This document shows positions 17,495 to 57,858 of a stretch of DNA of 58,907 nt, in pieces; within the stretch, counting starts at the first letter, position 1, and the number at the start of each line of letters is the position of its first letter. Origin of the DNA: Candidatus Liptonbacteria bacterium (lineage in GTDB: Bacteria > Patescibacteriota > Minisyncoccia > UBA6257 > 2-01-FULL-56-20); the NCBI GenBank assembly GCA_016186635.1, contig JACPLI010000003.1, positions 1 to 58,907 of the forward strand, in the 5' to 3' direction. Position numbers and translations under genes: made by a program. The notes below the pieces were generated by a model. It ran no database searches. It saw nothing but the letters and a program-made list of their open reading frames with translations, and was not told the DNA's origin.

Positions 17495-18757
17495 ATGTCT
17501 CAAGAAAATGACACCCCCCAGAAAATCTCGGGGTGCCGTGCGTGCGGGAACGGGAACCTCGTGCCGTGCGTGAGCATCGGCTCGCAGTACCTCTCCTCGG
17601 TGTTTCCGGCGACGCTTGACTACGCAAATTCAGTGCCGCGGTGGCCGCTGGACCTCGTGATGTGCAAGAAGAGCGATGCCACCTGCGGACTCGTGCAGCT
17701 CGCGCACGCGATTGATTTGACGAGCATGTATGACGCGTATCCCTACACCAGCTCGACCAATTCCTCTATGGCGGGGATACTCCAAAGCGTTGCCGAAGAC
17801 GGCAAGGCGCTCAAAACCCTGGAATCCGGTGATGTGGTGCTTGATATCGGCGGGAACGACGGGACACTCCTCTCGTTTTTTAAGGACGCGCCGGTGTCGC
17901 TTGTAAACATTGACCCCGCAAAAAATGTGAAGCCGCTCTTGCAGTCCGAGCGCTACACGCACCTCGCCGATTTCTTCAGCGAAGCGGCGTTCAAAAAGGC
18001 GTCCGGCACAAAGGCGAAGCTCATTTTCAGCGTGGCGATGTTCTACCACTTGAGCGACCCGCTCCGCTTCACGCGGGAAGTCGCCGCATGCCTCCACAAT
18101 GCGGGCGCATGGATTATTCAGATGGCGTACCTGCCCGCGATGCTTTGGACCAATATGTACGACAACATTGTGCACGAGCACAACGGGTATTACGCGGCGC
18201 AGCACACGAAGTGGATTATGGAGCAAGCGGGACTCGAGGTGTTTGACGTGTCGGAGAATGCGGTCTACGGCGGGAGTTTCCGCGTGTTCGTGAAGAAGAA
18301 AGGGAATGCGCAATTTCCCCTTACCGCGCGCTATCAGAAAATGCTCGCGGATGAATTGCGGCAAGGCATCTTCGACGAGGAGACGTACCGCCAGTTTGCC
18401 GCGCGGATTCAAAAAACGAGGGAAGACCTCCGCGCGCTCTGCGCGTCGCTCCGGGATGCCGGGAAGGCGATTTGGATTTACGGCGCTTCCACGAAGGGGA
18501 ACACCATTCTCCAATACTGCGGGTTGGGCAAGGAGTACTTTACGGCGGCGGCGGACTCCAATCCTTTTAAGGTAGGGAAGTACATCATTGGTTCGGATGT
18601 GCCCATCACAAGCGAGGCGGAGATGCGCGCGGCGAAGCCGGATTATCTCCTCGCCCTGCCGTACAGTTTTGTGGACGCGTTTATGAAACGCGAAGCGGAT
18701 TTGGTGGTACAGGGCACGAAGTTCATAGTGCCTCTGCCGGCGGTGAAGGTTATATGA
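17495..18757 (+). CDS. Sugar C-methyltransferase (zinc-binding N-domain, SAM domain, C-terminal domain)
   Basis: 420 residues in the three-part order of NDP-hexose 3-C-methyltransferases (TylC3/NovU-like). N-terminal Cys residues in CRACGNGNLVPC and in CKKSDATCGLVQL form the putative zinc domain. LDIGGNDGTLLSFF (about 131-144) is SAM motif I. The C-terminal domain has IWIYGASTKGNTILQYCG, typical of PF08484. Catalytic-type His and Tyr (YDNIVHEHNGYY) precede it. It should add a branching methyl group to a keto-deoxy sugar nucleotide, so the glycan may contain a branched deoxysugar. Last gene before the structured element. Confidence 0.85.
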   Translation: MSQENDTPQKISGCRACGNGNLVPCVSIGSQYLSSVFPATLDYANSVPRWPLDLVMCKKSDATCGLVQLAHAIDLTSMYDAYPYTSSTNSSMAGILQSVAEDGKALKTLESGDVVLDIGGNDGTLLSFFKDAPVSLVNIDPAKNVKPLLQSERYTHLADFFSEAAFKKASGTKAKLIFSVAMFYHLSDPLRFTREVAACLHNAGAWIIQMAYLPAMLWTNMYDNIVHEHNGYYAAQHTKWIMEQAGLEVFDVSENAVYGGSFRVFVKKKGNAQFPLTARYQKMLADELRQGIFDEETYRQFAARIQKTREDLRALCASLRDAGKAIWIYGASTKGNTILQYCGLGKEYFTAAADSNPFKVGKYIIGSDVPITSEAEMRAAKPDYLLALPYSFVDAFMKREADLVVQGTKFIVPLPAVKVI

Positions 18758-18764
18758 TTATGAT

Positions 18765-18875
18765 ACCGCGAGCGCATATGCTTCACGAGGGCTTCTCGCA
18801 GACCGACGGGTCGAGAGAGAGTGCTGCGGCAGCCCGCCGCAGATAACGTCCCTCGTGAGGCATATCGTGAACGGT
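18765..18875 (+). ncRNA. Candidate structured RNA, copy 1 (58-nt conserved core in a long stem)
   Basis: A 16-bp stem (18776-18791 with 18850-18865, one G-U) closes a 58-nt core (18792-18849). ACCG/CGGT (18765-18768 with 18872-18875) may extend it. In the core: TCTC/GAGA stem with a 3-nt bulge; 4-bp hairpin 18801-18804/18809-18812 with loop GACG; 7-bp hairpin 18824-18830/18836-18842. Copy 2 at 45784-45887 (minus) matches 46 of 58 core positions, and 8 of the 12 differences form four compensatory pairs. It ends 26 nt before the GT4 ATG. No T-tract follows, so it is not a simple terminator. Confidence 0.6.
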
Positions 18876-18891
18876 TAATGTCAAAATACAA

Positions 18892-20106
18892 ATGAAGATC
18901 GCGATAGTGTGCCTTAATCTTGGCTGGCAGACAGGCGGCCCGCGCCTCATCTTCTCTTCCGCGCAGGCCCTGAAGCGGCTTGGCCACACGGTGAAGATTT
19001 ATGCTCCCGATTATGACCCGAACACCTACCCCGAGCTTTCGGCGGGGCTTGATGCGCAAAAAGTGAGCGTGGGGAAAGACGTTTCGTGGAAGTATCACAG
19101 CAGCAACTTGCTTTTCCGCATCATGGAGAAAGTGAAGCGGGAGCGCACCTTGCAGGCGAGCGTGCGAAAAATCGCGCGCGTGATGGACGGCGACTTCGAC
19201 ATGGTGAATGTCCATGACTATGCCTACACGCTCGCCCCGCGCGTGCGGGAGCGGAATCCCCGAGCGACGGTAGTCTGGACCATGAACGACGTTCCCTATA
19301 TGTACATGCCGAAGAAGAACCTCGTCTATGACCTTTTGACGCGTCTCTACAACTGGTGGACTGCCCGCAGGGCGGACACCGCATACCTGCCGCACATTTC
19401 ATACGGGGTGGTGTTCCGCGAGCATAATGCGCAGTGGCTCCGGGCGCACGGCATCACGCCGATACTCCTCTGGCCGGGCATCAACTGCGAAACATTTTAC
19501 GCGCCCGTGCGCGCGCTCACCGCGCCCCAGAAGTCGTGCGTGCTCCTCGGCGTGGGCGCGTTCAACCGTTTTCGGAGATATGACGATATCATTGCGGCGG
19601 CCGCGATGCTTCGCAAGAAAGGATATGACGCGCGAGTGCTTTTGGTGTGCAAAGATATCTGGGACGCAGCGGAGGACAAAAAAGAAATACTCCGGAAAAC
19701 AAAGGAGCTGGGGATGGAGCTATATGTGACATTTCTCTTCGAGGGCGCTTCCGAGCGGGAACTCGCGCGTATCTACCGCGAGAGCGACGTGTTTGTGGCG
19801 TCCACCCACATCCCGCCGCCGCGGAGCGGGTACTCCTGGGGACTCGCGCTTTTTGAAGCCGCCGCGGCGGGCATCCCCATTGTGCTCTCAAATCGCAACG
19901 ACGCGCAGGAGGCGCTCCCGGGAGAAAAGGGCTCGCTCCTCTTTACTCCCTGCGAACCCAAAGAAATTGCAGAGCAGGTGGAGCGGTTCATGACGAACCC
20001 CGCGCTCCGCAATGCGCTCTGCGAGTACGCGCAACGGGTAGTGAAAGAGAAAATGAACTGGGACTATTATGCGCGCGAGTTAATAGCGCAAGCAAAACCG
20101 CGATGA
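18892..20106 (+). CDS. Glycosyltransferase family 4
   Basis: 404 residues, GT-B fold. N-terminal MKIAIVCLNLGWQTGGPRLI is the usual acceptor-domain start. The C-terminal donor domain has GVGAFNRFRRYDDIIAAAAM and SYSWGLALFEAAAAGIPIVL-type sequence (GLALFEAAAAGIP), which corresponds to the EX7E donor motif. It transfers a sugar from an NDP-sugar to a growing lipid-linked glycan in the cytoplasm; donor unknown. It is the first gene after the structured RNA candidate and overlaps the next gene by ATGA (20103-20106). Confidence 0.88.
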   Translation: MKIAIVCLNLGWQTGGPRLIFSSAQALKRLGHTVKIYAPDYDPNTYPELSAGLDAQKVSVGKDVSWKYHSSNLLFRIMEKVKRERTLQASVRKIARVMDGDFDMVNVHDYAYTLAPRVRERNPRATVVWTMNDVPYMYMPKKNLVYDLLTRLYNWWTARRADTAYLPHISYGVVFREHNAQWLRAHGITPILLWPGINCETFYAPVRALTAPQKSCVLLGVGAFNRFRRYDDIIAAAAMLRKKGYDARVLLVCKDIWDAAEDKKEILRKTKELGMELYVTFLFEGASERELARIYRESDVFVASTHIPPPRSGYSWGLALFEAAAAGIPIVLSNRNDAQEALPGEKGSLLFTPCEPKEIAEQVERFMTNPALRNALCEYAQRVVKEKMNWDYYARELIAQAKPR

Positions 20107-37080: not shown

Positions 37081-37086
37081 ATTCTG

Positions 37087-37120
37087 GGAAGTCGGACTTC
37101 CTGAAGGAAGTCCGACTTCC
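37087..37120. repeat. Hairpin repeat GGAAGTCGGACTTCC (family D, copy 1)
   Basis: A perfect 15-bp inverted repeat (37087-37101 with 37106-37120) around TGAA. Each arm is itself nearly palindromic (AGTCGGACT/AGTCCGACT). A second copy lies at 57825-57858. It sits between the dehydrogenase-like gene and the oxidoreductase. Confidence 0.75.
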
Positions 37121-37151
37121 TAACGTTGATGCCAACAATTACAATTCATCA

Positions 37152-44283: not shown

Positions 44284-45750
44284 TTACGAGTGCATAATTG
44301 CTTGCTTCGCTTCTCTGAGCGACGGCTCCTTGAGGAAGTAGAGCACGGCGCCGTAGATTGCCGCGCCGAGCGCCACGGAGAGGAGCACGGGGAGCTTGAT
44401 GCTCATAAAGAGGAGCACCCCGCCCGCCATGATGGCGGTTGCGGTGAAGGCGATGGAGAGGCGGGGGAGGACGCTGAAGGGGTTCTCCTGCTTCACTTTC
44501 CTCCGGAGGTAGGCGGTGGAGCACACTTGCGCGATGAGCGTTGCCCATGCGCACCCCGTGATGCCGAAGGAAGGAATCAAGAGAAAATCGAGCGCGACAT
44601 TGAGTACGCCTCCTATCGCCGCGTATGCGGTGAGGAGCTTCGGGCGGTTGTAGGCAAATGCGGCGTGGGCGAGCACCACGACGGGGAAGTCCGCAAGGAG
44701 GGTGAGCATGAGGATTTGGAACGGAGCGGTGCCGGGGAGGAATTCGCTCCCGAAGAGAAGCTCGATAATCTGCGGCGCGAGGAGGAGGCCCCCCGCGGCG
44801 AGCGGGAGCGCCATGATGAATACGACCGCGAGCGTACGCTCAAGCGTTGAGCGCATCTGCGCCCTGTGGTTGTCCGCAAGGCGGGAGAATGTCGGGAATG
44901 CGCTCGAGGCGAGGATGCCGGGGAGCAGGTAAAGGAGCTGGACGACGCGGTACGCGGCGGAGTAGAAACCGACCTCTTCCGCGGAGCGAAGCCAGCCGAT
45001 GATGAGGATGTCAGTGTTAATCATAAGAATGCCGAGGAGCGAGGCGATGGAGAGCGGCCAGGCGGCGGAGAGGATGGGCCTGACGAGGCGCTTTGAAAAG
45101 CTCGCGATGAGATTTCTCGGGATGTATCCGCGGAGCACCACGAAGGTGAGCGCGGCGCCGATGCCGGTGCCCACCGTATAGCCCCACGTGAACGACTCCG
45201 CCGTCGGCGAGAGCAGAAGGAACCCGAATCCCGCGAGGACGATGGCGACGTTTGTCGCGAGGAAGAGTCCCGCTTCCCACTCCATCCGCTCGAGCGCGCG
45301 GGTAATCGCGGCGCCGAACTCGCGGAGCGTGTCGAAGGCGAGGAGGAATGCGATGATGGGGAGTATTACCTTCGCTTCTTCGATGGTGGTGAACCACGGC
45401 GCGGCGACGAGGATGATGAGTACGCCGAGGAGAAGGAGGACGAGCTTCAGGGAGAGGGTGGTGGAGAATACCCGCGCACGGTGCGCGGGGTCATCATTCT
45501 TCGCGGTTTCTCGGATGAGGAATTGGCTGAGCCCCACGTCGGTGAACGGCGTGAGGATTGCGGCGAGCGTTACGCCGTAGGAGAACACACCCCAGCCCTC
45601 GGCGCCCAAGATGCGTGCGCCGTAGACAATAATGATGGCGCGTATGAAGCGCCCTCCGAAGTTTGAGATGCCGAGCCAGACGACATTTTTGATGACCGTC
45701 TGGCGGGTGGTGGTGTTATTGAAGAGGAAGGATTGTACCCGCTTCAGCAT
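44284..45750 (-). CDS. Polysaccharide flippase (Wzx/MATE-like)
   Basis: 488 residues with about 14 hydrophobic segments. N-terminal NVVWLGISNFGGRFIRAIII and VFSYGVTLAAILTPFTDVGL match the Polysacc_synt (PF01943) domain; FYSAAYRVVQLLYLLPGILA matches the conserved central helix. It moves the undecaprenyl-linked glycan across the membrane before polymerisation. ATG 45750 is the start of the homologous sequence; the frame extends upstream but would cross the structured element. It is the first gene downstream of copy 2 of that element. Confidence 0.9.
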   Translation of the reverse strand: MLKRVQSFLFNNTTTRQTVIKNVVWLGISNFGGRFIRAIIIVYGARILGAEGWGVFSYGVTLAAILTPFTDVGLSQFLIRETAKNDDPAHRARVFSTTLSLKLVLLLLGVLIILVAAPWFTTIEEAKVILPIIAFLLAFDTLREFGAAITRALERMEWEAGLFLATNVAIVLAGFGFLLLSPTAESFTWGYTVGTGIGAALTFVVLRGYIPRNLIASFSKRLVRPILSAAWPLSIASLLGILMINTDILIIGWLRSAEEVGFYSAAYRVVQLLYLLPGILASSAFPTFSRLADNHRAQMRSTLERTLAVVFIMALPLAAGGLLLAPQIIELLFGSEFLPGTAPFQILMLTLLADFPVVVLAHAAFAYNRPKLLTAYAAIGGVLNVALDFLLIPSFGITGCAWATLIAQVCSTAYLRRKVKQENPFSVLPRLSIAFTATAIMAGGVLLFMSIKLPVLLSVALGAAIYGAVLYFLKEPSLREAKQAIMHS

Positions 45751-45783
45751 GTGGTGTATAGTACTGCAATATGATGGGAAACA

Positions 45784-45887
45784 CGAGTACATAATATTTC
45801 GCAGGGACGCTATCTGCGGCTTACTGCCGCAGCGCTCTCTCTCCCGCCGTCGCGGTCCGAGAAGCCCTGCGAAATATTGTGTACTCG
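45784..45887 (-). ncRNA. Candidate structured RNA, copy 2
   Basis: A 23-bp stem (45784-45806 with 45865-45887, one non-Watson-Crick pair) encloses the 58-nt core on the minus strand (45864 to 45807). The stem sequence (AATATTTCGCAGGG side) is unrelated to the stem of copy 1, yet pairs fully. The core hairpin with loop GACG is CCGC/GCGG here and GACC/GGTC in copy 1. The element ends 33 nt upstream of the flippase ATG, in the same orientation as copy 1 relative to its glycosyltransferase. Confidence 0.6.
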
Positions 45888-45912
45888 CAATCCTGCTTAC
45901 TACTTCTGCGTT

Positions 45913-57824: not shown

Positions 57825-57858
57825 GGAAGTCCGATTTCCTAAGGGAAGTCGGACTTCC
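57825..57858. repeat. Hairpin repeat GGAAGTCCGA (family D, copy 2)
   Basis: GGAAGTCCGATTTCC (57825-57839) pairs with GGAAGTCGGACTTCC (57844-57858), 15 bp with one G-U. Same core as 37087-37120. From 57859 to 58001 I see no gene: candidate starts there have no promoter or ribosome site and give an Arg-rich peptide. Confidence 0.7.

Follow-up and report, generated by a model that had tools for sequence, protein, structure and literature searches.

A family of branched palindromes, probably mobile, dispersed between and within the genes of Parcubacteria

The window analysed herein is the whole 58,907-nt stretch of contig JACPLI010000003.1 from a Candidatus Liptonbacteria genome, and it carries two copies of a palindromic element at the places and on the strands that the original prediction, made without database searches, had assigned to them. 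The part of each copy that is described by our covariance models (18783–18858 on the plus strand for copy 1, 45798–45873 on the minus strand for copy 2) lies inside a longer stem, and the entire elements, their parts and the adjacent genes are as follows.

17495–18757, plus strand: gene immediately 5′ of copy 1, with C-methyltransferase domains (Pfam)
18765–18875, plus strand: entire element of copy 1, including an outermost short helix ACCG/CGGT (fold; matches to models R1 and R2)
18776–18791, plus strand: P1 left arm of copy 1, 16 bp, copy-specific, pairing with 18850–18865
18794–18818, plus strand: P2 hairpin of copy 1, with UCUC/GAGA, bulge GCA, GACC/GGUC and loop GACG (covariation)
18821–18847, plus strand: P3 hairpin of copy 1, with two pairs GU/AC, seven pairs CUGCGGC/GCCGCAG and loop AGCCC (covariation)
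18850–18865, plus strand: P1 right arm of copy 1
18892–20106, plus strand: gene 3′ of copy 1, glycosyltransferase group 1 (Pfam)
44284–45708, minus strand: gene 3′ of copy 2, polysaccharide flippase family (Pfam and ORF)
45782–45890, minus strand: entire element of copy 2, with a P1 of about 23 bp (fold, model matches and arms)

A longer ORF spans copy 2, and its start is probably not the true start of the flippase gene. Elsewhere in the window, two REP-like palindromes built from GGAAGTCsGACTTCC occur at 37085–37122 and 57825–57858, a motif also seen in the flanks of loci from genus g180.

The element folds as a three-way junction, in which P1 closes two covarying hairpins, and both window copies are far more stable than expected from their composition (folding z of −6.39 for copy 1 and −6.98 for copy 2, with none of 200 dinucleotide shuffles equally stable). 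All the parts described beforehand were found, i.e., TCTC/GAGA, the G-N-A bulge, the GACG loop and the CTGCGGC..GCCGCAG hairpin, although in the family as a whole the loop is mostly GRCG. Across the family, P2 consists of UCUC/GAGA, a GSA bulge, four covarying pairs and the GRCG loop, while P3 has two plus seven pairs and a loop that mostly begins with AG. The four compensatory pairs reported between the two copies are genuine, and a third copy, retrieved from contig C25 of this genome by a pattern search, adds another stem version, so that the stem of the GACG loop occurs in three forms within one genome (GACC/GGTC, CCGC/GCGG and GTGC/GCAT). Near this third copy (L001:1660–1700, G000 C25) there is also a fragment resembling the common ATTCCCGCGTAGG palindromic repeat.

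Covariation was assessed on an alignment of 105 copies, which was fitted to the model and was therefore guarded by shuffling and by sliding the pairing partners. The covariation score was 0.735, compared with 0.175 when shuffled and 0.09–0.13 with partners slid; 93.2% of the cells were paired (62.2% shuffled), both-sided changes were seen in 26 of the 28 pairs, and the cells with both-sided changes numbered 810 against 222 in the shuffles. The alignment also corrected the junction, where, in some family members, column 10 stands opposite column 67 instead of 66. Several families show a GA/GA internal loop at the foot of P1, but it was set aside as a dependable family feature, since a strict test scored it in no more than 36 of the 194 copies, the average for all dinucleotide pairs being 7. 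A comparison with the 4227 families of Rfam, known ribozymes included, gave no match to the element, and the only hits above a gathering score were tRNAs elsewhere in the loci. The nearest approach was DUF3800-IV (RF02963), which aligns weakly at full length to the antisense of copy 1 (16.1 bits, E = 4, against a gathering score of 60.7). There is no such alignment for copy 2 and no DUF3800 gene in the home genome; we rejected a relation on these grounds, and the alignment is most likely due to chance. The prediction of a structured candidate outside Rfam, backed by covariation, is thus upheld in a larger alignment.

A covariance model built from the three copies of the home genome (R1) gave about 70 matches at E ≤ 1 in 18 of 151 related genomes, with up to 17 per genome and a best E-value of 5.7e−16 among copies outside the training set, which answers in the affirmative whether further homologues exist in Patescibacteria. 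An exact-pattern scan with one genome per species yielded at least 111 stretches, and model R2, for which 105 copies were used, matched 68 of 384 genomes of one Patescibacteria class. The distribution is patchy: within one family, each of the ten genomes tested contained 4–23 copies, and copy number ranges from 0 to more than 20 among related genomes. The element spans roughly 75 to 140 bases, and 194 distinct copies were examined. Confirmed copies reside in Kaiser-, Nomura-, Lipton-, Harrison-, Taylor-, Niyogi- and Yonathbacteria (Parcubacteria/Patescibacteria), and more sit in records titled just “bacterium”; one of the genomes discussed below, G002, belongs to the same genus as the home genome. 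Pattern matches outside Patescibacteria look like chance, as the Gemmatimonadetes and Nocardiopsis records received no model score and those of Deltaproteobacteria and Thermoanaerobaculia reached only E = 0.41 and 0.72. No description of such an element in Patescibacteria was found in the open-access literature that we searched.

Roughly half the copies are intergenic. For the relatives examined first, with genes called by longest ORF, copies mostly lie no more than ~20–30 nt from a stop codon and seldom close to a start codon, and in genomes G002, G039 and G134 about one copy in two is found no further than ~20 nt from a stop, frequently where two genes converge. The genes next to intergenic copies are unrelated and often convergent, and the copies occur in both orientations. 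In other genomes, many copies lie within genes, including uvrB, uvrC, uvrD, recG, tsaD, tgt, leuS and miaA, and Pfam confirmed the hosts as UvrD, UvrB, RecG, TsaD, TGT, two class-I tRNA synthetases, glycosyltransferases, UvrC, Mur ligase and MiaA (IPP transferase). The uvrD gene holds two copies each in L112 and L153, and also in L189, where the stretch ends within the second. Of the genic copies, 42 have an open frame, and their orientation is sense in 29 cases and antisense in 13. All the genic insertions that we examined keep the frame and read through without stops, so that, judged from these open frames, the inserts would add peptides to their host proteins. Three synthetase genes at the loci studied have unusual domains of their own: the leucyl-tRNA synthetase-like proteins of L271:1533–4073 (minus) and L311:2–2077 (plus) contain a NUDIX domain within the editing-domain region, and the class-I tRNA synthetase of L273:1311–4073 (plus) contains a domain of the histidine-phosphatase superfamily.

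Comparison with the insertion-free orthologues of the whole G192 genome gave, at simple sites, inserts of +90 to +99 nt in recG, +69 to +90 nt at the first uvrD site, +99 nt in uvrB and +96 nt in a tRNA synthetase. Genic length differences are all multiples of three, while the intergenic ones include 89, 91, 103, 106, 127, 131 and 139. At the second uvrD site, L194 is insertion-free, L134, L207 and L255 have sense copies, and L112, L153, L191 and L218 have antisense copies; L255, read by eye, appears to have gained its sense copy next to what is left of an antisense one. At the same site, the core of L210 (G374) is clearly different (AGCGACGGCGACGGACAGAGAG..AATTTTCAGCAGAAAATT); it lies between 15-bp arms and represents either a diverged subfamily or another element. 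In genus g180, the arms of the orthologous L303 and L314 look related while their core subtypes differ, and L310 and L318 are inverted relative to their flanks. An empty-site search in relatives for the copies of G039 returned one shared gene end only, with a different neighbour.

The closing stems of 16 and 23 bp, which had been noted as unrelated in sequence, do pair, but they are better seen as outer arms, specific to each copy, of a probably mobile element. In the 194 copies, P1 extends past the modelled positions with a median arm of 25 (10–90%: 14–38), measured from the five outermost modelled pairs outward, and a copy’s own arms pair beyond the model (score ≥ 6) in 89% of cases, against 1.6% when partners are swapped between copies. 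Arm sequences are nevertheless largely copy-specific and mostly unrelated between copies. Median left-arm identity is 0.33 for within-genome pairs at 90–97% core identity and 0.43, with a wide spread, for those at ≥97%; near-identical cores can have unrelated arms (L315/L317, 24% and 19%; L063/L064, 24% and 52%), while other pairs keep theirs (L084/L085, 100%; L304/L305, 86%). Arms are clearly related among the copies of G233 and in the G134 pairs L084/L085 and L082/L083. In genic inserts, both arms lie mostly within the added sequence. The empty-site orthologues are only ~60–80% identical, too diverged for target duplications or exact ends to be read, and it was accordingly not demonstrable that the arms arose when the target was duplicated in inverted form. 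Their derivation from intrinsic terminators was discarded because the U-tract is mostly absent, although many long hairpins with short loops are found in the G039 genome. In that genome, another short recurring sequence like CTCAAGATGAGCACGGATACCTTTTAGTGCTCCCTATGAT tips a 22-bp perfect stem (L067:153–236 and the L072 flank), possibly representing a second family of hairpin-tip elements.

The arms also revealed a strand preference. On the sense strand of the element, the outer arms contain 191 G·U against 93 A·C oppositions (p = 6e−9), and within long frames the ratio leans the same way in sense copies (35:15) and, in a small set, in antisense copies (21:10). Since the excess keeps its lean in genes that are read antisense, it is probably the folded sense strand of the element itself, as RNA or ssDNA, and not the host mRNA, that is selected, although strand-biased mutation could account for part of the excess.

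We consider it likely that the element is a non-autonomous mobile palindrome of Parcubacteria, functionally similar to the Rickettsia palindromic elements (RPEs), with transposition inferred from its distribution; its dispersal, multi-copy state and presence or absence at orthologous sites bear out the earlier remark that a mobile hairpin was also possible. The same remark had favoured a cis-regulatory leader of glycan genes, for which the window itself speaks, as both copies lie 5′ of such genes in the same orientation, and a riboswitch-like RNA would be in keeping with the strong RNA-like covariation and the sense-strand G·U bias. Beyond the window this reading failed: the copies have no functional class of downstream gene in common, are found in either orientation and frequently 3′ of genes, many are within coding sequences, and their number changes from none to over 20 among related genomes, which leaves a leader very improbable as a general function. 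The clustering near stop codons in G002, G039 and G134, together with an A-tract/T-tract layout in L317 that resembles an intrinsic terminator, would instead fit a bidirectional terminator or a 3′ mRNA-stabilising structure kept by the host. We regard this as improbable too, given that most copies lack a U-tract, the distribution is patchy, transcription cannot end at in-frame genic copies and the G·U bias is independent of the neighbouring mRNA. A self-removing intron or bypassed mRNA segment would explain why the fold is maintained inside conserved genes, but neither splicing nor bypassing needs the frame to be kept or stops to be avoided; furthermore, half of the copies are intergenic and antisense genic copies would give the mRNA the complementary strand, and we give this explanation hardly any credence.

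The rival that deserves some weight, while still being somewhat unlikely, is that the copies are old resident hairpins with little present transposition, the arms of which drift by compensatory change while their cores are homogenised by gene conversion. The related arms in G233 and in the two G134 pairs, as well as the homologous-looking arms around different core subtypes in L303/L314, are what such residents would show. On the other hand, a conversion tract of ~58 nt without flanking homology would be unusual, and the orientation flips and the new copy beside a remnant in L255 point to re-insertion. For the mobile palindrome, we envisage that the sense strand, single-stranded as RNA or ssDNA, would fold and be recognised by a trans-acting enzyme through its fold, not the sequence of its arms, and that the element would then be copied into new places, where copies landing in frame in tolerant protein loops would survive as inserted peptides. 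More tentatively, the arms of an existing copy may receive another core by exchange or re-insertion, which would leave arms locus-specific and cores shared genome-wide. An extension of this idea, which we think rather doubtful, is a novel type of mobile element whose copies share just the branched core of ~58 nt, with this core inserted or exchanged at the end of palindromic arms that belong to each locus, via a folded single-stranded sense-strand intermediate that is recognised by shape, with both genes and intergenic DNA as homes.

A search for the enzyme eliminated two candidates. Y1 transposases were absent from G000, G002, G009, G039, G134, G192, G388, G473 and G418, and mobilisation by RAYT was rejected since the Y1 transposase is missing from many copy-rich genomes. 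Reverse transcriptases were found in 12 of 22 copy-rich genomes and are missing from the other 10, which disqualified them as the common machinery. As a separate observation, G429, G233, G212, G254 and G485 have unusually many Y1-type transposase genes, 4–10 per genome of <1 Mb, and other element-rich genomes have none.

These results describe a large palindrome family with many copies at genic and intergenic sites in a different, genome-reduced bacterial group, and they explain odd GLSQADGPRGSAPRARGDSDP-type insertions in Parcubacteria proteins. The 105-copy alignment provides a model usable by annotation pipelines, while gain, loss and flipping at orthologous sites make it testable what moves the element, whether the intermediate is RNA or ssDNA, and why repair and tRNA-synthetase genes are hosts. 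Palindromes that insert into proteins are known in Rickettsia, Wolbachia and few others, and we know of no settled mechanism for their movement.

Among known systems, the MITEs of classical transposons have target-site duplications and terminal inverted repeats in common with an autonomous transposon; here no common terminal repeat was seen, the arms being mostly copy-specific, nor was an autonomous parent found, and the empty sites are too diverged for a duplication to be read. The mitochondria of Nematomorpha contain coding palindromes, for which template switching or repeat conversion has been proposed (PMC6649704); these resemble our element in having long perfect inverted repeats within coding sequence with arms kept complementary, yet they are mitochondrial and have no conserved core in common. 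REPs tagged with CGTC, including RPE-4 and RPE-6, lie mainly downstream of genes and partly in repair genes such as uvrB without a dedicated transposase (PMC3733652), and the Parcubacteria palindromes likewise lie beyond gene ends and in uvrB with no dedicated transposase found. Their anatomy differs, however, in that these REPs are single hairpins of 20–40 bp with an unpaired terminal CGTC tag, whereas the Parcubacteria unit has ~75 nt plus arms with GACG as a hairpin loop; the REP/RAYT design, a hairpin of 20–40 bp whose foot bears an unpaired tag (GTAG or CGTC), is therefore not that of our element. RPEs are palindromes of 105–146 bp fused in frame in conserved genes, with the gmk case shown to be translated (Ogata 2000; PMC2229807). 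Compared with these, the Parcubacteria element belongs to another phylum and has a branched, covarying three-way-junction core and long copy-specific outer stems, and sequence relation was compared via Rfam only, without a match, so that the likeness is one of functional kind. Within that kind it extends to a dispersed palindrome of ~100–150 bp with a stable stem-loop, for which no mobilising enzyme has been assigned in either case, and which is scattered between genes and inserted with the frame kept inside conserved ones, repair genes included (PMC2229807, PMC3733652).
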